39,099 bases of DNA from Candidatus Neomarinimicrobiota bacterium. GTDB lineage: Bacteria > Fidelibacterota > Marinisomatia > Marinisomatales > S15-B10. A program made the position numbers and the translations under genes. Within the stretch, counting starts at the first letter, position 1; every line of letters starts with the position of its first letter. The notes beneath the pieces are model-generated. The model searched no databases. It was not told where the DNA came from and saw only the letters and a program-made list of their open reading frames with translations. Location of the stretch: contig JAZGBI010000046.1 in NCBI GenBank assembly GCA_036476315.1, forward strand, positions 1 to 39,099, read 5' to 3'. This document shows positions 2,565-39,099 of the stretch, in pieces.

Positions 2565-4175
2565 CTATCCGTCCGTGGGGAGTCCCTGATCTCCCAGACG
2601 AAAAAGAGAGATCTCACTGTAGGCCGGAAAATCGTCTCCTATTTCTCTCAAGATATCGGCCACATCGCCATATTTGAGCTCCCGCTTGCCCACTGTATTC
2701 ATCACCTCCATGACAATGGCCCAATCGTGTCTGATGCTCCCGCTCAAAGGAAGAGAAGGGCGGAGCCATTGAACTCTCCCTCGATCACTGGTGAGGGTCC
2801 CTTCTCGCTCCAGGGGGGCGGGCCCGGGAAGAACAAGATGAGCAGAACGAGCCATGGGTGTCATGGCATAGGTTTGAACCACCGCGAAGCGTAAGTTTCG
2901 AAAAACATCACCCCACCCTTCCCCGAGTCCTCTGTCAATACCATCATCCAACACATACATCAATTTGATTTTCTTCTCTCTTATGGTGTCCAGAATATCA
3001 TCCACGAGATCAGGACAGAGATCGACAACTCCTCTACGATTCGGAGATCGGTCCCCGCTAATCCGAAATCCGGAGGAGTAAACCAGATCTTTCTCCTCTT
3101 CGATGGGAGGTAACATACCCAGGGCACTCCGTCCTCTGAATACCTTTTTCATGAGACGCCCCAGAAGGAAATTGGACTCGTTAGTATGGAATGGGGAGAC
3201 AATCCCAGCTACAAAGGGTTTTTCCTTTTCGGTCCCTCTGGTGAAGTGATCGAACACTTCCTTCAGCGCCCCCTCCCAGCTAATCTCTGAGAATTCACCA
3301 TTTTTCCTGATGAGTGGTTGCGTAACACGCTCAATATCCTCATACCGATGAAATCCGTAACGTCCTATGTCGCACATGAAATAGCCGTTTACTTCATGAT
3401 TCTCCCTTGGAGTTATCCGGTAGATCCTGTCATCCTGATAGCATACGTCGATATTGCACCCCACGCTGCAGTCAGTGCAGACTGACGACTGGTTAGATAG
3501 ATTCCAGATTCGATTCTTGTGGATGTAGTCAGTACTCAAGAGGGCTCCCACCGGGCAGATGTCCGCTGCATTCCCTGCGAGAAAATTGTCCAGGGGATGA
3601 TCCTCAAGCACCGCTATCTTGGAAGGGTTGCCCCGGAACTTTATAAACAACTCCTTTGTTCCAGAAATCTGTTCGGTGAATCGGACACACCGGGTACACA
3701 TGATGCACCGGTTGTGATTGATCACAATTCTTGAGCCTAAGTACTCATTGGGTCGAACCCTTTTGTTCTCCTCAAACCGGCTGTGAGCGCGGCCATATCT
3801 GAAAGAATAGTCCTGCAGGAGACATTCCCCCGCCTGGTCGCAGACGGGACAGTCAAGGGGATGATTGATGAGGAGAAATTCGAGGATATTCTCCTGCTCC
3901 TTTTTCACGAGGTCATTTTGAGTATGAATGACCGCATCATACTTCCCGTCAACCTTTTTCTCCTTGGATACCTCTTCGATGAATGTGTTGCATGAAATCT
4001 GGAGCTTGTCCATCCCCTCAACCTGAACCAGGCACATTCGGCAGCTTCCTACGATATCAAGAGCCGGATGATAGCAGTAATGGGGGATCTCAATTCCTCC
4101 GGCCAAGGCTGCTTCCAAGACACTCGTTTCCTGCTCAACCTCAAGTTCCTTGTCATCTATTCTGATGAAGGCCAC
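2565..4175 (-). CDS. nuoG: NADH-quinone oxidoreductase subunit G, short form
   Basis: The iron-sulfur subunit of the NADH-input module. Ligands for four clusters can be read: N1b [2Fe-2S] Cys34, 45, 48, 62; N5 His105, Cys109, 112, 118; N4 Cys157, 160, 163, 207; and the extra N7 [4Fe-4S] Cys233, 236, 240, 268, which only some bacteria keep. The protein has 536 residues, whereas E. coli NuoG has about 900, so the molybdopterin-oxidoreductase-like domain after N7 is strongly shortened. The remnant still shows LVLPGPAPLEREGTLTSDRG, typical of that fold. It lies 18 bases after nuoF. Only one NuoG is encoded in the window, in the second cluster. Confidence 0.95.
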   Translation of the reverse strand: MAFIRIDDKELEVEQETSVLEAALAGGIEIPHYCYHPALDIVGSCRMCLVQVEGMDKLQISCNTFIEEVSKEKKVDGKYDAVIHTQNDLVKKEQENILEFLLINHPLDCPVCDQAGECLLQDYSFRYGRAHSRFEENKRVRPNEYLGSRIVINHNRCIMCTRCVRFTEQISGTKELFIKFRGNPSKIAVLEDHPLDNFLAGNAADICPVGALLSTDYIHKNRIWNLSNQSSVCTDCSVGCNIDVCYQDDRIYRITPRENHEVNGYFMCDIGRYGFHRYEDIERVTQPLIRKNGEFSEISWEGALKEVFDHFTRGTEKEKPFVAGIVSPFHTNESNFLLGRLMKKVFRGRSALGMLPPIEEEKDLVYSSGFRISGDRSPNRRGVVDLCPDLVDDILDTIREKKIKLMYVLDDGIDRGLGEGWGDVFRNLRFAVVQTYAMTPMARSAHLVLPGPAPLEREGTLTSDRGRVQWLRPSLPLSGSIRHDWAIVMEVMNTVGKRELKYGDVADILREIGDDFPAYSEISLFRLGDQGLPTDG

Positions 4176-4193
4176 GCGATCCCCATCCCAGTC

Positions 4194-5492
4194 TCAAAAC
4201 GTCGCGGCGAATTCGTCCTGGAATTTCTCAACGAAACTTCTCACAGGCCAGGCGACGGCTTCGCCGAAGGGGCAGAGAGTCTTGCCGTAGCTCCCCTGGG
4301 ACAAATCACTCAGACCTCCTATATTCTCGGTAACATCGAGAATCAAATCTATGTCTTTGCGTTGAGCATTGCCCCGGAAAAGGCGGGTCAAGATTTGTAC
4401 GAGCCAAACCGTCCCCTCCCTGCAAGGAGTGCACTGGCCACATGATTCCTGGGCGAAAAACCGGGCGAGATTAAGGCATGCGTTCACCATGTTGACCGAT
4501 TCATCCATCACAATGATTCCAGCTGAACCGAGAATTGTATGCCTGGCAGCGAGAGATTCGAAGTCCATGTTTAACCCCTCGATCCCTTCCGCGGTGAGAA
4601 CGGCTGATGAGACTCCTCCGGGAAGCACTGCCTTAAGAGCTTTTCCACCGTCAATTCCGCCCCCAAAATCATAAATCAACTCAGACAGAGGAACTCCCAT
4701 GGGAGCCTCGTAGACACCCGGATTGTTCACGCTGCCGGAGAGACAAAATAGCTTGGGACCCGGTCCCTGCTCCGGTCCAATGGACTTGAACCACCCCGAG
4801 CCCCGGTCGATAATGTCCGGTAGACATGCAAGGGTCTCCACATTTTGCACGACGGTAGGGCATGCCAGATATCCCGCAACAGCGGGAAAAGGCGGTCTTA
4901 TCCTTGGCCACCCTCGCTTACCTTCCAGCGATTCGAGAAGACCTGTCTCCTCACCGCAAATGTACGCCCCTGCGCCCCGGTGTATGACTACATCCAGGTG
5001 GTAGTCCGAGCCAGAGATATTCTCACCCAGGAGATTGGCTTCGTAGGCCTCTCCGACGGCCCCTTCGAGAATCTTGTACTCCTTGTAGAATTCCCCTCGT
5101 ATGTAGATAAAGGCCTTATGGCAATCGATGGCATATGACGCGATGATCATCCCTTCCAGCATCCTGTGGGGAGCCTTGTTCATGATCAGGCGATCCTTGA
5201 AAGTTCCCGGCTCACTCTCGTCCGCATTGCAGATGAGATACTTGGGTTTCGGAGAATCCTTTGGTACAAATTCCCATTTCTTGCCTGTGGGGAATCCAGC
5301 TCCCCCGCGCCCCCTCAGGTTTGAAGCCTTGATTTCCTGGGTAACGTCGTCGGGTCCCCCACCTTTGAGAATCTTGTTCAGAGACGCGTAACCACCGCCC
5401 TTTACGTAGGTTCTCAGAGTGTGGGAATCCTGAAGATGCACGTCTCGTGTCAAAACCGGTTCGAAGCGGGCTGGATCTGAATGGCCTGTCAC
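4194..5492 (-). CDS. nuoF: NADH-quinone oxidoreductase subunit F (NADH- and FMN-binding)
   Basis: The NADH dehydrogenase flavoprotein, which oxidises NADH and passes electrons through FMN to cluster N3. The glycine-rich NADH/FMN site is GRGGAGFPTGKKW (residues 61-73), followed by the FMN-contacting NADESEPGTFKDR and CGEETGLLESLEGKRG. The N3 [4Fe-4S] ligands are ESCGQCTPCREG (Cys351, 354, 357) and Cys407. The length of 432 residues is standard. Its start overlaps the nuoE stop by four bases. This is the only nuoF here, so only the second cluster carries its own NADH-oxidising module. Confidence 0.97.
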   Translation of the reverse strand: MTGHSDPARFEPVLTRDVHLQDSHTLRTYVKGGGYASLNKILKGGGPDDVTQEIKASNLRGRGGAGFPTGKKWEFVPKDSPKPKYLICNADESEPGTFKDRLIMNKAPHRMLEGMIIASYAIDCHKAFIYIRGEFYKEYKILEGAVGEAYEANLLGENISGSDYHLDVVIHRGAGAYICGEETGLLESLEGKRGWPRIRPPFPAVAGYLACPTVVQNVETLACLPDIIDRGSGWFKSIGPEQGPGPKLFCLSGSVNNPGVYEAPMGVPLSELIYDFGGGIDGGKALKAVLPGGVSSAVLTAEGIEGLNMDFESLAARHTILGSAGIIVMDESVNMVNACLNLARFFAQESCGQCTPCREGTVWLVQILTRLFRGNAQRKDIDLILDVTENIGGLSDLSQGSYGKTLCPFGEAVAWPVRSFVEKFQDEFAATF

Positions 5493-5980
5493 GAGAGCGA
5501 TTTCAGCAACTTATCCAGTTTTTCTACGGTCATTTTCTCGTGATGGTCATTGTTCACCTGAACCAGAGGAGCGATGTCACAAGCACCGAGGCACTCCACC
5601 TTCATGACTGTGAACTTTCCGTCTTTCGTTGTCTCCCCCGGTTGAATGCTCAATCTCTCGCACAGATGATCCACCAGATTATCAGCCCCCCTTATGCTGC
5701 AGGGCAGTGTTTGACAGATCTGAAGGATGAATTCCCCTTTCGGTGCTGTGTGGAGCATGGAGTAAAACGATACCGTTTCCATGATTTCACTGGGGTGAGC
5801 TTCGACAATTCTGGCCACGGCATTTATGATCGGTTGGGTAATATATCCAGCCTCAGCCGTGGCCATGTGAAGAAGGGGTAGCAAGGCCGAGCGCCTGTCC
5901 GGGTATTGGGAAAGTATGTTCTCTACCTGAGAAGGATTTCTGAATCTGAATGTCTGATCGTTTGCACCCTTCTCGTTCAC
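5489..5980 (-). CDS. nuoE: NADH-quinone oxidoreductase subunit E (24 kDa)
   Basis: A thioredoxin-fold [2Fe-2S] subunit (cluster N1a) that binds NuoF. The four cysteine ligands are in the family spacing, C-x4-C then C-x3-C: Cys89 and Cys94 (QICQTLPCSIRGA), then Cys130 and Cys134 (VECLGACDIAPLVQVN). At 163 residues it has the normal size, with the usual helical N-terminal region (LLPLLHMATAEAGYI). It overlaps both nuoD and nuoF by four bases, so D, E and F are translationally coupled. The upstream cluster has no counterpart. Confidence 0.96.
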   Translation of the reverse strand: MNEKGANDQTFRFRNPSQVENILSQYPDRRSALLPLLHMATAEAGYITQPIINAVARIVEAHPSEIMETVSFYSMLHTAPKGEFILQICQTLPCSIRGADNLVDHLCERLSIQPGETTKDGKFTVMKVECLGACDIAPLVQVNNDHHEKMTVEKLDKLLKSLS

Positions 5981-7194
5981 CGGTCCAATTCTCCCGCAAT
6001 AATGTTGAGGCCACCCAATATGGCCACCGCGTCTGACAGCATATGTCCTTTCATGATCTTGGAGAACACTGAATAATTGATGAATGATGGAGGCCTTGTT
6101 CTTACCTTATAGGGAACGCTACTGCCGTCGCTCACGATATAGAACCCCAGCTCTCCATTCGGAGATTCCGTAGGGACATACGCTTCACCCACCGGAGGTT
6201 TCATTCCCCGGTTTGGCATCGTGATCTCGAAATGATATATCAATCCTTCAATGGAGTTGTAAACCTCATCCTTGGGGGGAAGAATGACTTTTGAACTGCT
6301 GTCGACATTTACCTCACCCGGCGGCATTTTGTCTATTGCCTGCCTGCACAGCAGGGCACTCTGCCGAATCTCCTCCATGCGAACGAGATAACGGTCAAAG
6401 ACATCACCATTCAAACCGATCGCAACGTCGAACTCAAAGTCATCGTAGCTTGAATACGGTTCTTTCACCCGGATATCCCAGTCGACCCCGGCTGCCCGTG
6501 CCATGGGTCCGGTAATTCCGTAGGAGATAGCATCTTCCTTCGTGATGACACCCACACCTTTGGTCCGGTTTTGCCAGATACGGTTCTTATTGAGGAGTGT
6601 TTGAACGTCATTCGTAACCTCATCCACCTGGCCCAAAACTTTGATCACGGCGTCGTTGAAGCCGTGGGGAATATCTCTCGTCAAACCACCCACCACCGTA
6701 TAGCTGGTCGTGAGGCGGGTTCCGGTAGCGGATTCGAAAAGATCGTAAATCGCTTCCCTGAGACGAAAACAGTAGAGAAATACCGTCATTGCTCCCAAGT
6801 CGACCGCCTGCATGCCAACACAAACGAGATGATCCGCAATTCGGCTCAGTTCACACATGAGTAGACGGATATACTGAGCGCGCCTGGGAACCTCAATGCC
6901 CATCAGCTTCTCCGCCGAAAGGGCGTAGGCAACGTTGTTACAGAGAGGGGACATATAATTCATCCGGTCCGTGATGGTGATGTATTGATTATAATTGAGA
7001 TATTCTCCCAGCTTTTCGAAACCAGAATGGAGAAAACCGATTTCCGGCCGAACACCTACCACCGTCTCCCCGTCTAATTCCATGATAATGCGGAGAGTGC
7101 CGTGAGTGGCTGGGTGAGAAGGCCCGAAGTTGAGGACCATCCGCTCCGTTTCCAGGGACTTTTCTTCCGTAACCATCAGATTCTCTTGACGCAT
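5977..7194 (-). CDS. nuoD: NADH-quinone oxidoreductase subunit D (second cluster)
   Basis: The 49-kDa subunit, related to [NiFe] hydrogenase large subunits, which forms the quinone-reduction site with NuoB. Family blocks include LNFGPSHPATHGTLRIIMELDGE (start of the quinone-site loop, containing the conserved histidines), GFLHSGFEKLGEYLNYNQ, and the C-terminal ADAVAILGGLNIIAGELDR-type end (here SDAVAILGGLNIIAGELDR). The length is 405 residues. Either Met1 or Met7 (ATG at 7176, preceded by an AAGAGAA sequence) could be the start. It lies 13 bases after nuoC. Its paralogue is at 17284-18429. Confidence 0.96.
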   Translation of the reverse strand: MRQENLMVTEEKSLETERMVLNFGPSHPATHGTLRIIMELDGETVVGVRPEIGFLHSGFEKLGEYLNYNQYITITDRMNYMSPLCNNVAYALSAEKLMGIEVPRRAQYIRLLMCELSRIADHLVCVGMQAVDLGAMTVFLYCFRLREAIYDLFESATGTRLTTSYTVVGGLTRDIPHGFNDAVIKVLGQVDEVTNDVQTLLNKNRIWQNRTKGVGVITKEDAISYGITGPMARAAGVDWDIRVKEPYSSYDDFEFDVAIGLNGDVFDRYLVRMEEIRQSALLCRQAIDKMPPGEVNVDSSSKVILPPKDEVYNSIEGLIYHFEITMPNRGMKPPVGEAYVPTESPNGELGFYIVSDGSSVPYKVRTRPPSFINYSVFSKIMKGHMLSDAVAILGGLNIIAGELDR

Positions 7195-31375: not shown

Positions 31376-32956
31376 TTACAGCCCAATTGAAAGTTGGATC
31401 ATGGCATCGAACTTTTGTGAGTTGACCCTTTTTCCGCTCTGAGGGTCCACGCGCCGCAGCCAATGGTCATAGTAAAGATCGAAAGAGAAACGCATAAAGG
31501 AAAAAAGGAGAAGTTCTCCCCGAAAGCCGGCCAGAATCCTCGTCTCCGGGTTTAATTCAAAGGGAAACAGAAATGGGATTTTTTCACGATCATATTGCAT
31601 TTCAACAGTTTCATCACTCACTTCTCCACGCCTCGTTCTCTGGACATAGATCTGTACCCACCACGCCTCACCCGGAGCTCCCTCTGCCGCGAGAAACATA
31701 TTGTCGGAATTGGGACCGGACCAGAAACCCAGATACTGGCCGTAGTGCTGAAATGTATTTACTCTGCTCCGGTGGACATAAACATAGGGGGTCATATGAG
31801 AGGCTTCGAATCGTAGAATGGATTTCCAGTCACGAAGAAATGGAAGCAGATAGGCGAAGCCAGCCTGGTAGGCCATCCAATTCCTACTCTTCCTTTTGTT
31901 GAATGTGTCTACAAAGTCCCATTCATCAATATATAGTGATCCATAGAATCGGCCAAAAGACTTTACCGCAATTTGGAGATCCCCGAACATCTGGAGATTA
32001 TCAGAGTCACTAAGGTTATGCTGGGTTGACCAATAGAAGAGTACCGGGAGTGCGTAGGCCATTTCCACTCCTCGTGCACCGTAGACGACAGATTCGCCGA
32101 AACCAATGTTGATGTTTTCGCGCGGTGAAAAATCGAGACGATGGGCCACCACGAATTTACGCACTAGAGGCAATCCGCCTTTAAGATAGAGTCTTGAGTT
32201 AGTGGAATCGCGAAATGTCGAGTTTAGACTGCCATGCAGATAAGTAAACGTCCACCTATCCGAGAAGCGGTGTTTCCAACTCAGGAAAGGGAAACTGGGT
32301 GCCTTCTCGGATAGCCATGTCTGGCCGGCATAACCGGGTCCCCACACGGGGTTAGACTGTGCGAACGTGAATTCTCCGTAGGGATAGGCGAGAACAATGC
32401 CGCCGTCTCCGATGCTGTATTCAACCCAGGTGGAATCGTTACTCTGATATGCCCGGCGCCCTATCTCTTTCTGCCAGGTGAAGTCATATGAAAGATCAGA
32501 AATCTTGCTTTTACTCACCACTGAGTGTTTCTCGATCCGCCCCCACAGGATCAGTCCAAATCCTCTTATGGGCAGCAACCGGTATTTGGTAAACAGATTC
32601 ACCGCGGGGGCAATATCCGCGAAGAAACCTTCCCTGTTCACCCGGCCGCCATTGGGATAAAATGTGGAAGTGAAATCTGGAAAAAACTTTATCCTCTCAT
32701 TCCGAAACAAGGAATCCCCGGCTTGGGATCTGAGCAAGTCGTCGCTCCCCGGGGGCGTGTCCACTCGCCACTCATGATTGAGGCGGTTCGAAAGGTAGGG
32801 TTCTATTTCCCCTTCCTCGATAGATCTGACCTCAAAAAAATGTAGATTTAATCCCGTGGGGCGCACCAAGGTCTGGCCGGAAAGAAAGAGGGGAAGAAGG
32901 AGCAAATTGACCAGACTTATGATCCGGCCTCGACGGTCTTGTGTCTCAATAGTCAA
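31376..32956 (-). CDS. Wzi-family capsule assembly outer-membrane protein
   Basis: A 526-residue predicted outer-membrane beta-barrel. An N-terminal signal segment (ISLVNLLLLPLFLSGQTLV) is followed by alternating amphipathic strands rich in Tyr, Trp and Phe. Wzi-family patterns include a conserved region around FTFAQSNPVWGPGYAGQTWLSEKAPSFPFLSWKHRFS, followed by INIGFGESVVYGARGVEMAYALPVLFYW. In enterobacteria, Wzi is a lectin that holds capsule to the cell surface; in the FCB group the role of this family is inferred. It sits within a glycan locus between two glycosyltransferase-type genes. Confidence 0.8.
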   Translation of the reverse strand: MTIETQDRRGRIISLVNLLLLPLFLSGQTLVRPTGLNLHFFEVRSIEEGEIEPYLSNRLNHEWRVDTPPGSDDLLRSQAGDSLFRNERIKFFPDFTSTFYPNGGRVNREGFFADIAPAVNLFTKYRLLPIRGFGLILWGRIEKHSVVSKSKISDLSYDFTWQKEIGRRAYQSNDSTWVEYSIGDGGIVLAYPYGEFTFAQSNPVWGPGYAGQTWLSEKAPSFPFLSWKHRFSDRWTFTYLHGSLNSTFRDSTNSRLYLKGGLPLVRKFVVAHRLDFSPRENINIGFGESVVYGARGVEMAYALPVLFYWSTQHNLSDSDNLQMFGDLQIAVKSFGRFYGSLYIDEWDFVDTFNKRKSRNWMAYQAGFAYLLPFLRDWKSILRFEASHMTPYVYVHRSRVNTFQHYGQYLGFWSGPNSDNMFLAAEGAPGEAWWVQIYVQRTRRGEVSDETVEMQYDREKIPFLFPFELNPETRILAGFRGELLLFSFMRFSFDLYYDHWLRRVDPQSGKRVNSQKFDAMIQLSIGL

Positions 32957-33050: not shown

Positions 33051-34457
33051 TTACTGACCTTTGCCTGACATCATAACGGCGGCGGTTCTGAACATGATCA
33101 TAAAGTCGAGCGAGAGGCTCAAGTTCTCAATGTAAAAGAAATCGTATTTCAGTTTTTGTCTTACATCTTCCACGGTGGAGTCATAGGAATGCTTGATCTG
33201 AGCCCAGCCTGTAATTCCCGGCCGGATCTTGTATCTCCGATAGTAGAATGGAAATTGCTCCATCAATTTTTCAACGAAGTAGGGACGTTCAGGTCTCGGT
33301 CCCACAACACTCATATCCCCTTTCAGAACATTGATGAATTGAGGCATCTCGTCCAGTCTAAACCGCCTGAGAAACTTACCCACCTTTGTGATTCTCGGGT
33401 CATCCTCCATTGCCCAGATAGGTCCTGTATGGGATTCGGCATTGTGCACCATGGATCGAAACTTACTCACAATGAACCGTCGGCCGTTCTGTCCCATTCT
33501 CTCCTGTCGGTAAAAAATGGGCCCTTTTGAGTTAATCTTGATGGCAGCCGCAACGACCAACCAGACAGGAAACAGGGGTACCAGCACAAGAAACGACATG
33601 ACCAGGTCAATGAGGCGCTTGAGATACCTCTGCTGGCTGGTCATAATCTCAGGATTGATCTGAACGAGAGGAATCCCATAAATGTGTTCCGTCCTGGCCA
33701 GGCCGCTGACCACTTCGTACATATCGGGAATTATTTTCAGGGATACGGGAGATCCGTTTGCAATGGTCATGATGTCCAGCAGTCTGTCGTGATCTGGCTT
33801 TTCCAGGACTACTATCACTTCACTGACGTGACGTTCGTCAACTGCCTCCTTGAGATTACCCAGTGATCCCAGGACCGGTTTCCCATCAATTTCCTCAATC
33901 CCATCCGTTGAGAACTGTGGCGTGAAGTAACCCAGGAAATTATAGCCCATAAGGGGGTCGTTCAGTCGTTGAGCCAGATTCCGGGCCCTTTCATTTGTCC
34001 CTACGATAACCGCATTCTTCCTTCCATATCCCCGTCGGAGGAAGAACTTCTGCACTTGCCTCACCACCAGTCTTCCAGATGACACAGAGGCCACGAAAAC
34101 TATCCAGTACTGAAGAAGCATTCCACTGGGTATGACGAAGGGAAGTTTCAACAGCTCATTGCACATTACGCCAACCAGAGTTGTCGCGAGGGTGATTTTG
34201 AAAAGGGTTTGCAATTCATCAAACCTGGAGAGGGTAGGATCCACACGATACCGTCCGTTGACATAGAACAACGTGAACCATAACAATTGAATGGACGCAA
34301 CGGACAGCAGGACAAATCCGGGAAATATGATTGCGGTGTCATAGAGCGGGAGGAAGATGGCCGAAAAAGCTACCCATCCCGCGATGGTATCTGTGACAAT
34401 GAGAACGGCCACAACCATCCAATACTTCCAATTCCTTTTGAAGTTCACTCTCGACAT
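33051..34457 (-). CDS. Undecaprenyl-phosphate sugar-1-phosphate transferase (WcaJ/WbaP type)
   Basis: Initiates glycan assembly by moving a sugar phosphate from a nucleotide sugar to the polyprenyl-phosphate carrier. Four or five N-terminal helices and a central Rossmann-like domain (NAVIVGTNERARNLAQRL) precede the conserved transferase domain from KRLIDLVMSFLVLVPLFP to the end. That domain contains GPIFYRQERMGQNG, FRRFRLDEMPQFINVLKGDMSVVGPRPE and IRPGITGWAQI. The open frame begins at a TTG (34472), but the ATG at 34457 (MSRVNFKRNWKYW) is preferred. Glucose-, galactose- and other sugar-specific members look alike. Confidence 0.94.
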   Translation of the reverse strand: MSRVNFKRNWKYWMVVAVLIVTDTIAGWVAFSAIFLPLYDTAIIFPGFVLLSVASIQLLWFTLFYVNGRYRVDPTLSRFDELQTLFKITLATTLVGVMCNELLKLPFVIPSGMLLQYWIVFVASVSSGRLVVRQVQKFFLRRGYGRKNAVIVGTNERARNLAQRLNDPLMGYNFLGYFTPQFSTDGIEEIDGKPVLGSLGNLKEAVDERHVSEVIVVLEKPDHDRLLDIMTIANGSPVSLKIIPDMYEVVSGLARTEHIYGIPLVQINPEIMTSQQRYLKRLIDLVMSFLVLVPLFPVWLVVAAAIKINSKGPIFYRQERMGQNGRRFIVSKFRSMVHNAESHTGPIWAMEDDPRITKVGKFLRRFRLDEMPQFINVLKGDMSVVGPRPERPYFVEKLMEQFPFYYRRYKIRPGITGWAQIKHSYDSTVEDVRQKLKYDFFYIENLSLSLDFMIMFRTAAVMMSGKGQ

Positions 34458-34495
34458 GGTCACACAGTACAATCAATACATAAGGTATGTAGGGG

Positions 34496-34734: not shown

Positions 34735-35814
34735 TCAATTCAAGAAATCGTGCAGGACGTTTGCGATTCTCTCTGCCGAGTGTCCATCCCATAACGGCGG
34801 AATTTTGCCCTCTTTTTGATCTCCTTCTAAAATCTGATCCACTTTCCTGCAAAGGAGGTTCATGTCCTTCCCGACGAGTTGATTTGTGCCATCTGTAACG
34901 GTGACGGGTCTTTCGGTGTTTTCCCTCAATGTGAGGCACGGCACACCGAGAAATGTGGTCTCTTCCTGAATACCACCGGAATCTGTGATTGCAACGGTCG
35001 AAGATTGCAGCAGGGAGATAAATCCGAGGTAACCCATGGGCTCTCTGAGCTGGAAGGATTCGCTCCCCGGAAGTCGCAAATCGAAATCAGCGATGCGCTG
35101 TCGCGTTCGCGGATGGATGGGGAAAACGACCTTTAGTCGCTCACTTATTTGAGCAAGCATTTCCACAATCCGTCTGAGCATGGTAAGGTCATCCACATTT
35201 GATGGACGGTGAAGTGTGACCAGGGCGTATTTCTCCGGTAAGCCGAAAGACCCTGGGTCCTTCGCTTTGGGAAGGAGTTGAACCAGAGTATCAATCATCA
35301 CATTACCCACCAGGTGAATTTTAGCCGGATTCACTCCCTCTCTTATCAGATTCTCATTTCCATCGGATGAGGGGGTAAAAAGGAGATCGGAAATCTGATC
35401 GGTAAGAAGCCGATTGATCTCTTCGGGCATGGTTCGGTCGAGGGATCGCAATCCAGCCTCCACGTGCCCGACGGGGATGAGCAGTTTGGCACATACCAGC
35501 GCCGCCGCGACCGTCGAGTTTACGTCCCCGTAGACAAGTACAAGGTCGGGTTTCACTCTGGAAACGACACCGTGGAAACCGGTCATGATGGAGGCCGTCT
35601 GTTCGGCGTGAGACCCTGAACCCACATCCAGGTAATGGTCCGGCTCGGGAAGACCCAAATCCGTGAAGAAAACTTCTGACATATTCACGTCATAATGCTG
35701 TCCCGTATGGACCAGAATCTGGCGAGTGGAAAGTCTCTTTGAAATGGCTCTCCACACTGGAGTAACCTTCATGAAATTGGGACGAGCCCCGACGACATGA
35801 ACAAGCTTCATCAT
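34735..35814 (-). CDS. wecB: Non-hydrolysing UDP-N-acetylglucosamine 2-epimerase (WecB family)
   Basis: Interconverts UDP-GlcNAc and UDP-ManNAc, or a related 2-epimerisation, for surface glycan precursors. The start HVVGARPNFMKVTPVWRAI, then HTGQHYD, GDVNSTVAAALVCAKLLIPVGHVEAGLRS, EINRLLTDQISDLLFTPS and the UDP-binding AITDSGGIQEETTFLGVPCLTLRENTERPVT are all present. The length is 359 residues. It overlaps the glycosyltransferase gene by four bases. FnlC of the L-FucNAc pathway belongs to the same family, and no WecC-type dehydrogenase is visible, so the exact product is open. Confidence 0.93.
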   Translation of the reverse strand: MMKLVHVVGARPNFMKVTPVWRAISKRLSTRQILVHTGQHYDVNMSEVFFTDLGLPEPDHYLDVGSGSHAEQTASIMTGFHGVVSRVKPDLVLVYGDVNSTVAAALVCAKLLIPVGHVEAGLRSLDRTMPEEINRLLTDQISDLLFTPSSDGNENLIREGVNPAKIHLVGNVMIDTLVQLLPKAKDPGSFGLPEKYALVTLHRPSNVDDLTMLRRIVEMLAQISERLKVVFPIHPRTRQRIADFDLRLPGSESFQLREPMGYLGFISLLQSSTVAITDSGGIQEETTFLGVPCLTLRENTERPVTVTDGTNQLVGKDMNLLCRKVDQILEGDQKEGKIPPLWDGHSAERIANVLHDFLN

Positions 35815-37064
35815 TCTTTCCTCCGGCAGACTGTCATCAAAACGTCTTCCATACTTCTTGCCAGGTCTTTCCGGTCGAAGTGGGTTTTGACGAATTCATA
35901 GCCATTTTCTGCGTATCTGAAAAGTGCATCAGAGTCCTTTGAAAGTGAGACGACCGTGTCGGCAAGCCGTTTCGGGTCTTGCGGCGGGACCACCACTCCT
36001 CCCCCAGCGGCGTCCACGAGCCGGGCCGCTTCACCGCTGGCAACAAGAACCACAGGTTTTTGACAAGCCCACGCCTCCATCAGTTTGGAGGGGACGGCAT
36101 CCAGTAAGTTCTTGCTCACCAAAGGAACAAGGACCACATCCGCCAAAGCGAGAATAGAGGCAACTTCTTCTCTGGGCTGAGACGGTACAAAGGTCACGTT
36201 ATTCAAATTCAGATATTTGGCCTTCTGCATTAGCCTTTTCCTTTCAACACCGTCGCCCACAATGAGGAAGTGAATCCCTCTATCATGGTGCAGAAAATTG
36301 GCAGCATCCACAATCGTTTCAACTCCTTGGGCGATACCTATCAAACCCGTATATGCCGCCACAAAAGGCCCAGCGGGCTTGAGGACCCTCCGCCACTTCT
36401 CGACGTTTTCGTTTCCTAACCGATCGAAATCAACGCCATTGGGAACAACGGTAACTTTCTCATCTCCGGCACCTTCAGCCACGATTTTGTCATACTTGGC
36501 TTCAGTGACAGGGGTGATGTGGTCAGCTCGCGCGTAAAGCCGCCTCGCCAAATACCTACCCAACCTGACCAGAATATCTCCCGAATGAAATGCACCCGCA
36601 TCGACGGCCACATCGGGCCATATATCACGTACGTCGAAAACAAAGGGGATTCCGCGGATCCGGGATAGAACCCGGCCCACAATGCCAATCAAGAGAGGGG
36701 GTGATGACGCCAACACGACGTCGTACTCGCCCCTGATCGAGAGTCCAGTTATCACAGATGACAACATGAAAGATGAGTAATTCGACAGTCGTCCTATCCC
36801 GCTGCGGTGAGAAGTGGCATAGACCCATGTGCGGATTATGTCCACGTCGTCTTTCCTTTCCTTCATTCGAAATCGGCCCCGATATCCACGCGGAATAAAG
36901 CCCGTCGGATAGTTCGGAAACCCTGTTATTACCGTTACCTTGTGACCAAAACTCACAAGCCAGCGGGATAGACCGTGAACTCTCGCCGCGGCACCACCCA
37001 TTTCAGGAGGATAATAGTGTGTGACAACGAGGATTTTCAATCTGTTATTGGTTTCTTGATTCAC
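35811..37064 (-). CDS. Family 4 glycosyltransferase (WbuB/WcaI-like)
   Basis: A 417-residue GT-B fold enzyme that adds a sugar to a lipid-linked or surface glycan. The N-terminal domain begins KILVVTHYYPPEMGGAAARVHGLSRWL and includes TGFPNYPTGFIPRGY, a pattern of the WbuB/WcaI subgroup. The C-terminal nucleotide-sugar domain has VPNGVDFDRLG, GLIGIAQGVETIVDAA and the E-x7-E-type region SKLMEAWACQKPVVLVASGEAARLVDAAGGG. It overlaps wecB by four bases, so the pair may act on the same sugar. WbuB transfers L-FucNAc in some O antigens; whether that holds here is not known. Confidence 0.9.
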   Translation of the reverse strand: MNQETNNRLKILVVTHYYPPEMGGAAARVHGLSRWLVSFGHKVTVITGFPNYPTGFIPRGYRGRFRMKERKDDVDIIRTWVYATSHRSGIGRLSNYSSFMLSSVITGLSIRGEYDVVLASSPPLLIGIVGRVLSRIRGIPFVFDVRDIWPDVAVDAGAFHSGDILVRLGRYLARRLYARADHITPVTEAKYDKIVAEGAGDEKVTVVPNGVDFDRLGNENVEKWRRVLKPAGPFVAAYTGLIGIAQGVETIVDAANFLHHDRGIHFLIVGDGVERKRLMQKAKYLNLNNVTFVPSQPREEVASILALADVVLVPLVSKNLLDAVPSKLMEAWACQKPVVLVASGEAARLVDAAGGGVVVPPQDPKRLADTVVSLSKDSDALFRYAENGYEFVKTHFDRKDLARSMEDVLMTVCRRKE

Positions 37065-37085: not shown

Positions 37086-38327
37086 TCAATAGGGATGCAA
37101 TTCCAACGTGCATAGAGCTCGGACACCAGTATGGGCAGAGTCAAAACATATCATCGTTCCCTTCCTATCCCACCGTGGATGCAAATCGCACCTCAATTCG
37201 CGTCTGTAGCGGAAAGGTGAATGAATCCTGGCCAGATCGATTCGGCGGTTATTCTCGATATCGCAGAGGATGAGAAATTGAATCCTCGACCTGTTGGGAT
37301 AAGTATCGGTGACGAATCTCGTCCTGTCGTGTGAATATTGAGGATGACCGTCCGAGGTGAATAAATCTTCCCCGAAGATCGAAAACTCTCCCGTCCTGTC
37401 TTCAAAGAGATAGTAATGATCTCCCAACTTCTCCGTCGAGGCGTAGGCAAGAACGGTATCTTCGTCGCGCCAGGTCGTATGAGTCACCGTCCCTGAAGTT
37501 GGGAAAACGAAAAGATCATTCCCATTAAGGTCACACGAAATCATCCGCGTCCAGGTTAGACCCTTTCCAGTCAGCCACCGGTGGAAGAAAATGAACCGCT
37601 CACCGGAAGGAGAAAACAGACAGTGAGTGAAATAGTGGTAGGAATCTTCCATAGATGATTCAGGTTCAACAGACGCAATTTCCTTCAGCGAGAAGACTTT
37701 GTCGATGTCTCCCGATTTCGTATTCATCAGGAATAAACCGTCCGATTCCGGTACGGACAGTTCTTCTTCCGGGTCTTCTCCGTTCGCATAGCCGTACTCG
37801 GGAGCGCACCTCCTCAACCTGGCAAAACTGTGACTCAGAGCATACCCGCCGTCAGGATTTATGGCACATATCGGTCGAGGCAAGGACCTGACAGTCTCTC
37901 CGTCACTATCGACAATCTTAGACACATGTTGAACACCATCCAGGTCGTTATGAATAATCAGTTGGGATTGTCCCACCCATTGGAGCATTGATCCCGTCTG
38001 CCAGTTCCACGTTCCTGTCGTACTCACGGGGACGAACCTGGAAAGATCCCGACCCTGAAAATAGCCAATTTCCACCTCGTCGTGCGGTCCGGGCCTCTTA
38101 AGAGAATCGTGATACTTATGCGCAAGTAGCATACGATTGTCCGGCGACCAGGGGCATTTATCGTGAAATCCAAAGAAATACCCTTCGCGAACACGGATGG
38201 AAAACGCCGAATGAAGGTCATCCACCGGAATTATGGAGAACGCCCGCTGGTATACACGAACAATAAGCCTCTTCAAAGCGGGACGATTCTTGATGCGATC
38301 GTAGACGAATCGCTCGAACCGCTTCAC
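37086..38327 (-). CDS. Unknown protein with TolB-like beta-propeller repeats
   Basis: A 413-residue protein I do not recognise by name. A basic, helical N-terminus (MKRFERFVYDRIKNRPALKRL) is followed by about six repeats in the style of TolB/WD40-like propellers: CPWSPDNRMLLAHKY, CAINPDGGYALSHSF, CLFSPSGERFIFFHRW, TTWRDEDTVLAYAS, PQYSHDRTRFVTDTYP and HPRWDRKGTMICFDSAHTG. No signal peptide is evident, so a cytoplasmic location is likely. It lies 21 bases before the glycosyltransferase gene and overlaps its upstream neighbour, so it belongs to the glycan operon. A glycan-modifying or scaffolding role is a guess. Confidence 0.6.
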   Translation of the reverse strand: MKRFERFVYDRIKNRPALKRLIVRVYQRAFSIIPVDDLHSAFSIRVREGYFFGFHDKCPWSPDNRMLLAHKYHDSLKRPGPHDEVEIGYFQGRDLSRFVPVSTTGTWNWQTGSMLQWVGQSQLIIHNDLDGVQHVSKIVDSDGETVRSLPRPICAINPDGGYALSHSFARLRRCAPEYGYANGEDPEEELSVPESDGLFLMNTKSGDIDKVFSLKEIASVEPESSMEDSYHYFTHCLFSPSGERFIFFHRWLTGKGLTWTRMISCDLNGNDLFVFPTSGTVTHTTWRDEDTVLAYASTEKLGDHYYLFEDRTGEFSIFGEDLFTSDGHPQYSHDRTRFVTDTYPNRSRIQFLILCDIENNRRIDLARIHSPFRYRRELRCDLHPRWDRKGTMICFDSAHTGVRALCTLELHPY

Positions 38328-39099
38328 TACAGGAATTCCCTCAATTGGGAGTCTCGATATATAAGAACTCGGGATCCGCCCTTAACACTTCTCGTTGAGA
38401 AATAGTAAAAATCCCCCTGATAGTCTTCTGCATAATAGGGAATCTTGACCACGGGATACTGAAAGTACCTAACCGGGAGAAAATCCTTTTTGAAGGACAG
38501 CAACTGCTTCCAGTCCCCTGTCTCTTTCGCTCCCCATAACTCGGCAAATTTGTGTTTGTTGATACGGCTCGGTTCATAGGCAGTGCTCAAAAAGATCCAG
38601 TTTTTCACTTTTGAACAATAAAGCGCACTTCCGTTCAATTCTTCCAGAGGCTCCAATCGTTCCCTTTCGAACGAGTAGTATTGAACATAATTCCTCTGAC
38701 TCGGTGTGTCCGTCGGAATAATCAGGCCAGTTGGAGTCGGTATGATCGAAACGGCCCGGTATTCCTGTTTTCCCGTAAGAAAGGGAAGGACCTCTGAAAA
38801 ATCTTCCGTTTTCCAAATTCCCGCCTCGTTGTTCCTATCCCCCGTCAAAACCCAGAAAAGATCTCTAAAAGGATCGAATACGATATTGTGGACATGACGT
38901 ATTGCGCCGGCTTTGAAGCAGTATACCCTGTTCCAGGATTCTCCAAGATCCGTTGAAAGGTAAACGTTGACTCCCCTCGGGGTCTTGGGTCTGGCATAGT
39001 CTCCCCAGATGATCCATTCCCTCGATTGAGTGTAGCAGACGTTCAAGGGGTACCGGGCATTCTGGATGCGGTACTCATGGGTTATTCTATCATTTGCTA
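38327..39099 (-). CDS. Unknown Asp-box (sialidase-like) propeller protein, N-terminus outside window
   Basis: The frame is open through the right edge, so the start lies outside; the visible part is 257 residues. It has a clear Asp-box, YLSTDLGESWNRV (S/T-x-D-x-G-x-x-W), and related repeats such as GDRNNEAGIWKTEDFSE, VRHVHN-type turns and SIIPTPTGLIIPTDTP. Asp-boxes occur in sialidases, other glycosidases and non-catalytic propellers. The catalytic residues of sialidases cannot be judged from this fragment. It overlaps the next propeller gene at the stop/start, so both are likely coexpressed with the glycosyltransferase and epimerase. Confidence 0.6.
   Translation of the reverse strand, partial: ANDRITHEYRIQNARYPLNVCYTQSREWIIWGDYARPKTPRGVNVYLSTDLGESWNRVYCFKAGAIRHVHNIVFDPFRDLFWVLTGDRNNEAGIWKTEDFSEVLPFLTGKQEYRAVSIIPTPTGLIIPTDTPSQRNYVQYYSFERERLEPLEELNGSALYCSKVKNWIFLSTAYEPSRINKHKFAELWGAKETGDWKQLLSFKKDFLPVRYFQYPVVKIPYYAEDYQGDFYYFSTRSVKGGSRVLIYRDSQLREFL

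Follow-up and report, generated by a model that had tools for sequence, protein, structure and literature searches.

The window analysed here, a stretch of 39,099 nucleotides from a Candidatus Neomarinimicrobiota bacterium (Fidelibacterota), was the complete contig C46 (JAZGBI010000046.1) of a 2.6-Mb genome (G000, assembly GCA_036476315.1). At its far end lay two adjacent genes, one for an Asp-box protein and one for a protein designated propeller A, which is presented below as a candidate uronate-modifying enzyme. Read along the minus strand, the gene order was Asp-box protein, propeller A, GT4 glycosyltransferase, UDP-N-acetylglucosamine (UDP-GlcNAc) 2-epimerase, sugar transferase and Wzi-like protein:

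38327–39097, minus strand: Asp-box protein, C-terminal 256 amino acids; the reading frame is open at the contig end, and the full length is ~348 amino acids as estimated from homologues
38325–38329, minus strand: stop/start overlap TAGTG of the Asp-box and propeller A genes, with one shared base (stop TAG 38329–38327, start GTG 38327–38325)
37086–38327, minus strand: propeller A, 413 amino acids, GTG start; PL22-like predicted fold, member of the WbgV family
35811–37064, minus strand: GT4 glycosyltransferase, 417 amino acids (profile search)
34735–35814, minus strand: UDP-GlcNAc 2-epimerase of the WecB type, 359 amino acids (PF02350, E = 3.4e-106)
33051–34472, minus strand: sugar transferase (Bac_transf), 473 amino acids (profile search)
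31376–32956, minus strand: capsule assembly protein, Wzi-like, 526 amino acids (profile search)

The first-pass annotation of the window had described two genes overlapping at stop and start and leading into a glycosyltransferase–epimerase pair, and this was borne out by the TAGTG overlap, the GT4 gene and the UDP-GlcNAc 2-epimerase gene. The two genes were also neighbours, with their order unchanged, in genomes G004, G008 and G021 (43–57% identity), indicating that their pairing was not due to chance. The gene pair is genuine and no artefact. The Bac_transf protein is the probable initiating transferase of the locus.

As the window was a whole contig, the Asp-box gene had been cut by assembly. 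A search with the family profile placed its first ~80 residues, starting MLSPEIVLEHYSVHF, at the extreme end of another G000 contig, C58; the gap between the two pieces was ~6 residues as estimated from the G008 homologue, the contigs not being joined. This missing N-terminus, which the first-pass annotation had proposed to examine, contained no hydrophobic signal-like stretch (maximum mean hydropathy 0.71 in a 15-residue window). Upstream of the Asp-box start, C58 encoded two sulfotransferases (PF13469, E = 1.7e-38 and 3.4e-15), a UDP-sugar dehydrogenase (E = 4.3e-62), a GT4 protein, a GNVR chain-length protein, an export protein and dTDP-sugar proteins, an arrangement matching that of G004 and G008 except for one extra sulfotransferase gene and one extra gene of 498 amino acids. 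Because the split Asp-box gene and this gene order link the contigs, the dehydrogenase was counted in the window locus.

Propeller A gave no Pfam or NCBIfam match at E up to 10 and no PHROG family match. The PL22 model PF14583 was matched neither by propeller A at E up to 10 nor by 15 members of its family at E up to 1, and the TolB models (Pfam TolB_N/PD40, NCBIfam TIGR02800) were not matched by propeller A. PD40 was weakly present in 4 of 15 relatives (best E 0.0011), and one distant family member scored 33 bits on TIGR02800, for which the cut-off is 343. The earlier label “TolB-like” can therefore be kept as a fold class but not as a family. Sequence searches of the PDB with propeller A, the Asp-box protein and the family profiles gave weak matches or matches at the Asp-box motif only.

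An AlphaFold2 model of propeller A, computed from the window protein together with named relatives, ten sequences in all, reached a predicted local distance difference test score (pLDDT) of 89.4 and a predicted template modelling score of 0.90, with N-terminal helices predicted at residues 3–12 and 16–29. The top two structures in VIA-align were the oligogalacturonate lyases 3c5m (Z 28.3, root-mean-square deviation 3.3, 326 residues) and 3pe7 (Z 28.2, deviation 3.6, 330 residues), followed by an S9 peptidase (Z 24.9) and WD40 proteins (Z ~22–24). In Foldseek, 3c5m ranked first (E = 4.8e-10, template modelling (TM) score 0.57) and 3pe7 sixth (E = 2.0e-9, TM 0.60), and rhamnose-glucuronate lyase 7esl and related entries were among the matches. 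Profile–profile comparison of 40 family members with 3pe7, 3c5m and three PL22-like proteins gave E = 5.5e-12 over 247 columns, as against 0.056 for a reversed profile, 0.082 for a pyrroloquinoline quinone (PQQ) propeller and 0.07 for the Asp-box family; on a smaller scale, 15 members matched a set of four PL22-like proteins at E = 1.4e-6 (198 columns). Propeller A is thus predicted to have the PL22 propeller fold.

In lyase 3pe7, we take His242, the catalytic base, and Arg217 to be catalytic and His287, Gln350, His353 and His355 to be manganese ligands; the 3pe7 sequence has these residues at these indices. Both hhalign and a separate MAFFT merge mapped the sites of 3pe7 (His242, Arg217, His287, Gln350, His353, His355) to H283, R261, H328, L378, D381 and H383 of propeller A. 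The codons of the conserved positions, with their occurrence among 40 aligned family sequences, were:

37479–37481, minus strand: His283 codon, aligned to His242 of 3pe7 (40/40)
37545–37547, minus strand: Arg261 codon, aligned to Arg217 of 3pe7 (30/40)
37344–37346, minus strand: His328 codon, aligned to His287 of 3pe7 (39/40)
37185–37187, minus strand: Asp381 codon, aligned to His353 of 3pe7 (40/40)
37179–37181, minus strand: His383 codon, aligned to His355 of 3pe7 (39/40)

H235, R250 and R403 were also conserved in all 40 sequences. Two of the four presumed metal ligands were thus identical (H328 and H383), one was changed (His353 to D381) and one was lost. Four of the six lyase-site positions were among the 16 of 413 columns conserved at ≥93% (hypergeometric 2e-5, a value that is not independent since the alignment leans on conserved residues). 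The alignment left out the short or broken sequences of L009, L010 and L032, all three of which are included in the 43-gene context count given below.

Shigella sonnei wbgV was the best-known relative among the plasmid matches listed (30 of 39 records). By tblastn, propeller A was 28.3% identical to WbgV at 88% coverage (E = 1e-32); the family profile matched WbgV at E = 2.2e-70 (profile positions 15–409), and H235, R250, R261, H283, H328, D341, D381, H383 and R403 of propeller A were all shared. The statement of the first-pass annotation that neither protein resembled a known glycan-assembly component therefore does not hold for propeller A, most of whose length is homologous to the product of an O-antigen gene. 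The product of wbgV is named “UDP-GalNAcA C5 epimerase WbgV” in RefSeq (WP_000923778.1) and “glycosyl transferase” in other plasmid records. WbgV itself went unmatched in NCBIfam (E 0.001) and in Pfam (E 0.01); the family members scanned gave no Pfam or NCBIfam match above cut-off, their public labels being “hypothetical protein”, “glycosyl transferase” or “C5 epimerase”. Relatives of propeller A and of the Asp-box protein were absent from viral contigs as searched with exact peptide patterns, and none of propeller A was found in phage records by tblastn.

By annotation, the WbgV locus of S. sonnei contained genes for a UDP-GlcNAc C6-dehydrogenase, an NAD epimerase/dehydratase, one GT2 protein, an aminotransferase, a sugar transferase and a second epimerase/dehydratase. 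From these genes we infer that WbgV is a candidate for the C5 step to L-altruronate, a sugar that the abstract of PMC8048667 and a passage of PMC10732612 place in the S. sonnei O-antigen. In a passage of PMC6467956, wbgVX and wbgZ are said to indicate FucNAc4N and AltNAcA, with nothing further. The terms sought in PMC7198725 and PMC8048667 returned nothing on WbgV, and the passages of Plesiomonas papers naming WbgV contained no enzyme assay. No link between WbgV and PL22 was found in the literature searched, subscription papers being outside its scope.

In a 48-row tree, the window protein and WbgV fell within one 33-row clade (support 96/90), and glycosyltransferase genes were close to all 33 members (by annotation for WbgV and Parabacteroides). 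A second clade of seven rows (100/100) comprised Bradyrhizobium, Pacificitalea, Thioclava, Caballeronia, Cupriavidus, L033 and L057. Its members adjoined aminotransferase, amino-acid dehydrogenase or tricarboxylate-transporter genes in the annotated stretches L131, L136 and L137, whereas the propellers at L033:8967-10250 and L057:9308-10690 adjoined what looked by eye like a racemase gene. In this sister clade, the substrate of the propeller may be a small carboxylic acid.

The propeller A family was found in at least 20 of 245 genomes of the phylum, 8 of 395 sampled Bacteroidota (the phylum of L008) and 6 of 398 sampled Bacillota (the phylum of L005); these counts are lower bounds, only some of the first-look candidates having been scored, and the latter two include the centre genome. 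L005 holds the propeller A homologue of a cultured bacterium, Alkalibacterium olivapovliticus DSM 13175. A glycosyltransferase was encoded within three genes of 35 of the 43 family genes (three of which were fragments), as judged with models built from those same neighbours, representatives of which were checked in Pfam. Homologues of propeller A thus did not lie mostly outside glycan loci. The eight family genes without such a neighbour were in L033, L057, L099, L101, L103 (two), L113 and L115. The L103 propellers, two distant relatives with N-termini resembling twin-arginine translocation (Tat) signals by eye, lay outside the 33-member glycan clade and adjoined a 459-amino-acid homologue of pectate lyase 9buj (E = 2.1e-55 against the PDB; no Pfam match at E 1e-5).

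Elsewhere in the family, a sulfotransferase gene directly preceded propeller A in L003. On a Palleronia plasmid (L134:6126-9023), a 965-amino-acid protein combined a GT2-like domain (27.2 bits, against a Pfam cut-off of 27.5) with a C-terminal propeller, and a sulfotransferase gene lay ~2.6 kb from this fusion. A two-domain oxidoreductase of 708–719 amino acids (zinc alcohol dehydrogenase plus GFO/IDH/MocA) was encoded directly or one gene before propeller A at four loci (L002:367-2493, L003:6780-8906, L030:15419-17545 and L032:15468-17627; assigned by Pfam on L030 and by clustering for the others), and the genomes of these four loci gave no Asp-box match. In G031, a gene for a CDP-alcohol phosphatidyltransferase (L032:17731-18558), unusual for a sugar locus, directly preceded propeller A.

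The Asp-box protein of the window had one strict copy of the motif S-x-D-x-G-x-x-W and a weak Sortilin match (Pfam, E = 0.065), and BNR matches of its relatives were below threshold. No Asp-box repeat exceeded a curated cut-off (BNR_6 in L028 scored 13.6 bits, 27 being needed). The earlier name “Asp-box” is based on the one strict motif, together with the weak Sortilin match and the sub-threshold BNR matches. A single-sequence structure model of the window fragment had a pLDDT of 37.5, too low to judge a propeller fold. Profile searches of the PDB gave weak matches to GH74-type and exo-arabinanase chains (6p2k, E = 0.0022), spanning only 15–38 residues around the motif. R161, H162, H164, D169, D181, R208, D224 and E269 (L028 numbering) were invariant in nine sequences, which suggests a real pocket.

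The Asp-box family occurred in 10 of 245 genomes of the window's phylum and in 6 of 395 Bacteroidota. The same type of sulfotransferase was encoded directly before the Asp-box gene in all seven single-domain copies of the phylum (L028, L029, L031, L080, L082, L083 and L084), and propeller A accompanied four of these seven. The same scan found no preceding sulfotransferase for the remaining three copies, namely L035 (489 amino acids), L081 (an acetyltransferase fusion) and the weak match L085. In L081 (G223, 3913-6036), the Asp-box domain was fused behind an Acetyltransf_6 (GNAT) domain. Within the phylum, the Asp-box protein is thus more consistently paired with the sulfotransferase than with propeller A, and it is linked to sulfation. 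Among the six Bacteroidota copies, a sulfotransferase gene was directly before the Asp-box gene in one (L145) and elsewhere in the stretch in L146, and glycosyltransferases were nearby in all six. A copy on a Segatella plasmid was in a glycan locus, and a distant haloarchaeal relative adjoined a sulfatase gene; haloarchaeal plasmid relatives were annotated “glycosyl hydrolase”.

The gene after the Asp-box gene in 13 single-domain copies of the two phyla was that of propeller A in four (the window, L028, L029 and L031), that of a heparinase II/III-family protein in five, and another gene in four (L146–L149). The heparinase II/III-family genes in the propeller A slot were:

L082:5246-6820
L083:4902-6476
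L084:9497-11071 (Pfam, E = 4.6e-39; the other four were assigned by the profile from this cluster)
L144:7217-8839
L145:7512-9176

Because both alternatives in this slot belong to families with uronate lyases, the module was read as sulfotransferase, Asp-box protein, uronate-modifying enzyme and transferase.

We lean towards the view that propeller A acts on uronates through a PL22-like active site and is most probably a C5-epimerase. Its computed basis is the fold match, the residue conservation, membership of the WbgV family, the gene context and the UDP-sugar dehydrogenase gene of the locus; location, metal binding, chemistry, substrate and order of steps are what we infer from it. On this view, propeller A would depend on a metal, be built on the PL22 scaffold and work inside the cell, probably in association with the membrane. 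A divalent metal at His328, Asp381 and His383 would hold the uronate carboxylate, and His283, aided by Arg261, would remove the C5 proton beside it; a proton would then be given back on the opposite face, with no elimination of the neighbouring bond, so converting a D-uronate into an L-uronate. This epimerisation would take place during assembly of an exopolysaccharide that also carries sulfate, with a UDP-uronate or a lipid-linked oligosaccharide as candidate substrate, and the Asp-box protein would partner the sulfotransferase and the uronate-modifying step, as catalyst or scaffold. A shared locus and operon are supported, and so is a glycan-modifying role, as proposed in the first-pass annotation. 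Of the other roles proposed there, trimming and recognition of the glycan are disfavoured in so far as they would be extracellular, neither protein having a clear signal peptide by eye and crude hydropathy.

Several observations weigh against C5-epimerisation by propeller A. The fourth lyase ligand, Gln350, aligned to Leu378, which is not conserved in the family, and in Foldseek ODA16 and TolB chains appeared between and after the lyases with similar E values, although with lower TM scores (0.38–0.45). A UDP-uronate-type dehydrogenase gene was present in only 14 of the 43 stretches, many of which were truncated. WbgV is ~25% identical to the window protein, so its substrate need not carry over; public records disagree on wbgV (“UDP-GalNAcA C5 epimerase” or “glycosyl transferase”), and a passage of PMC9723277 gives the C-5 epimerase label to WbgZ, not WbgV. 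The three members of the seven-row clade with annotated records adjoined amino-acid or organic-acid genes. Hydropathy separated family members poorly (window 1.22, L031 1.62, WbgV 1.87, Tat-like L103 1.70), so that the intracellular location is a judgement.

That propeller A is instead a true lyase, performing intracellular beta-elimination on uronate intermediates or mis-assembled chains in editing or recycling, is unlikely. In its favour, a lyase is the top fold match and shares most of the active-site positions, Foldseek also returned rhamnose-glucuronate lyase 7esl and related entries, the gene slot is common to heparinase II/III-family proteins, and the Tat-like L103 relatives stand beside a pectate lyase homologue; but the glycan clade does not include these relatives, RefSeq calls WbgV an epimerase, an L-uronic acid is present in the corresponding O-antigen, and the loss of the fourth metal ligand with the change of one His to Asp might fit an altered chemistry. 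The near-invariant His, Asp and Arg residues coincide with the lyase active site and would be needless in a non-catalytic scaffold or glycan-binding protein of an assembly complex, a role that we consider quite improbable for propeller A, even though propellers are commonly scaffolds and most of the high-ranking fold matches after the lyases were WD40 proteins and S9 peptidases.

Very little credence is given to the family being a glycosyltransferase or glycosidase of unrecognised fold, as had been suggested at first: no glycosyltransferase model was among the Pfam families matched by 15 members (E up to 1), the Palleronia propeller is fused to a separate GT2-like domain, some relatives adjoin amino-acid catabolism genes, and the best fold match is to uronate lyases, with most active-site positions kept. 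These points outweigh the “glycosyl transferase” label of wbgV in several plasmid records and the glycosyltransferase found within three genes throughout the window's clade. The Asp-box protein might itself hydrolyse the growing glycan in the manner of a sialidase or a GH74/GH93 enzyme, as the weak GH74-type and exo-arabinanase profile matches around the motif, the eight catalytic-looking invariant residues and the haloarchaeal annotations would allow; with PDB matches confined to the motif, Pfam BNR/Sortilin scores far under cut-off, no signal-like stretch at the N-terminus and most copies in biosynthetic loci, this is unlikely.

Beyond the C5-epimerase assignment lies a wider picture, possible but on balance doubtful. 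Fidelibacterota would make a sulfated, L-uronate-containing (iduronate-like) exopolysaccharide akin to animal glycosaminoglycans, by means of a C5-epimerase that arose on a lyase propeller and whose place in the operon can be taken by heparinase II/III-family proteins; the same scaffold would have made altruronate in the Shigella/Plesiomonas O-antigen, and the sister clade would use it on amino or organic acids. The heparinase II/III fold is that of animal dermatan sulfate epimerase. The analysis proposes a fold, probable active-site residues and a chemistry open to experiment for a family whose scanned members, WbgV among them, score below cut-off with every Pfam and NCBIfam model, together with a route to rare L-uronic acids in bacterial glycans. 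The family may be a further case of an epimerase and a lyase on one scaffold, and the locus may produce a sulfated glycan like animal glycosaminoglycans.

Compared with known systems, the window Asp-box protein shares one strict Asp-box motif with the BNR/Asp-box proteins (sialidases, GH74, Vps10), but its family falls below every curated cut-off, has no signal-like stretch and is linked to sulfotransferases. Heparinase II/III-family proteins (PF07940/PF16889) act on uronates and occupy the slot after the Asp-box gene in five stretches, but they belong to other Pfam families and their fold differs from that of propeller A. The PL22 oligogalacturonate lyases (3pe7, 3c5m; PF14583) resemble propeller A as its best fold match (326–330 residues) and in the equivalents of His242, Arg217, His287 and His355, whereas propeller A has no Pfam match, Asp in place of His353, no Gln350, extra N-terminal helices and a biosynthetic locus. 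WbgV of S. sonnei and Plesiomonas shigelloides O17 is alike in homology over most of its length, in all active-site residues tested and in a glycan locus beside a glycosyltransferase. It differs in ~25% identity, in a more hydrophobic N-terminus (the first residues being missing from the piece compared) and in the absence of an Asp-box gene from the annotated stretch of its locus. The window locus, with its sulfotransferases, GT4 and WecB, differs from that of WbgV, so that another uronate is probably involved.

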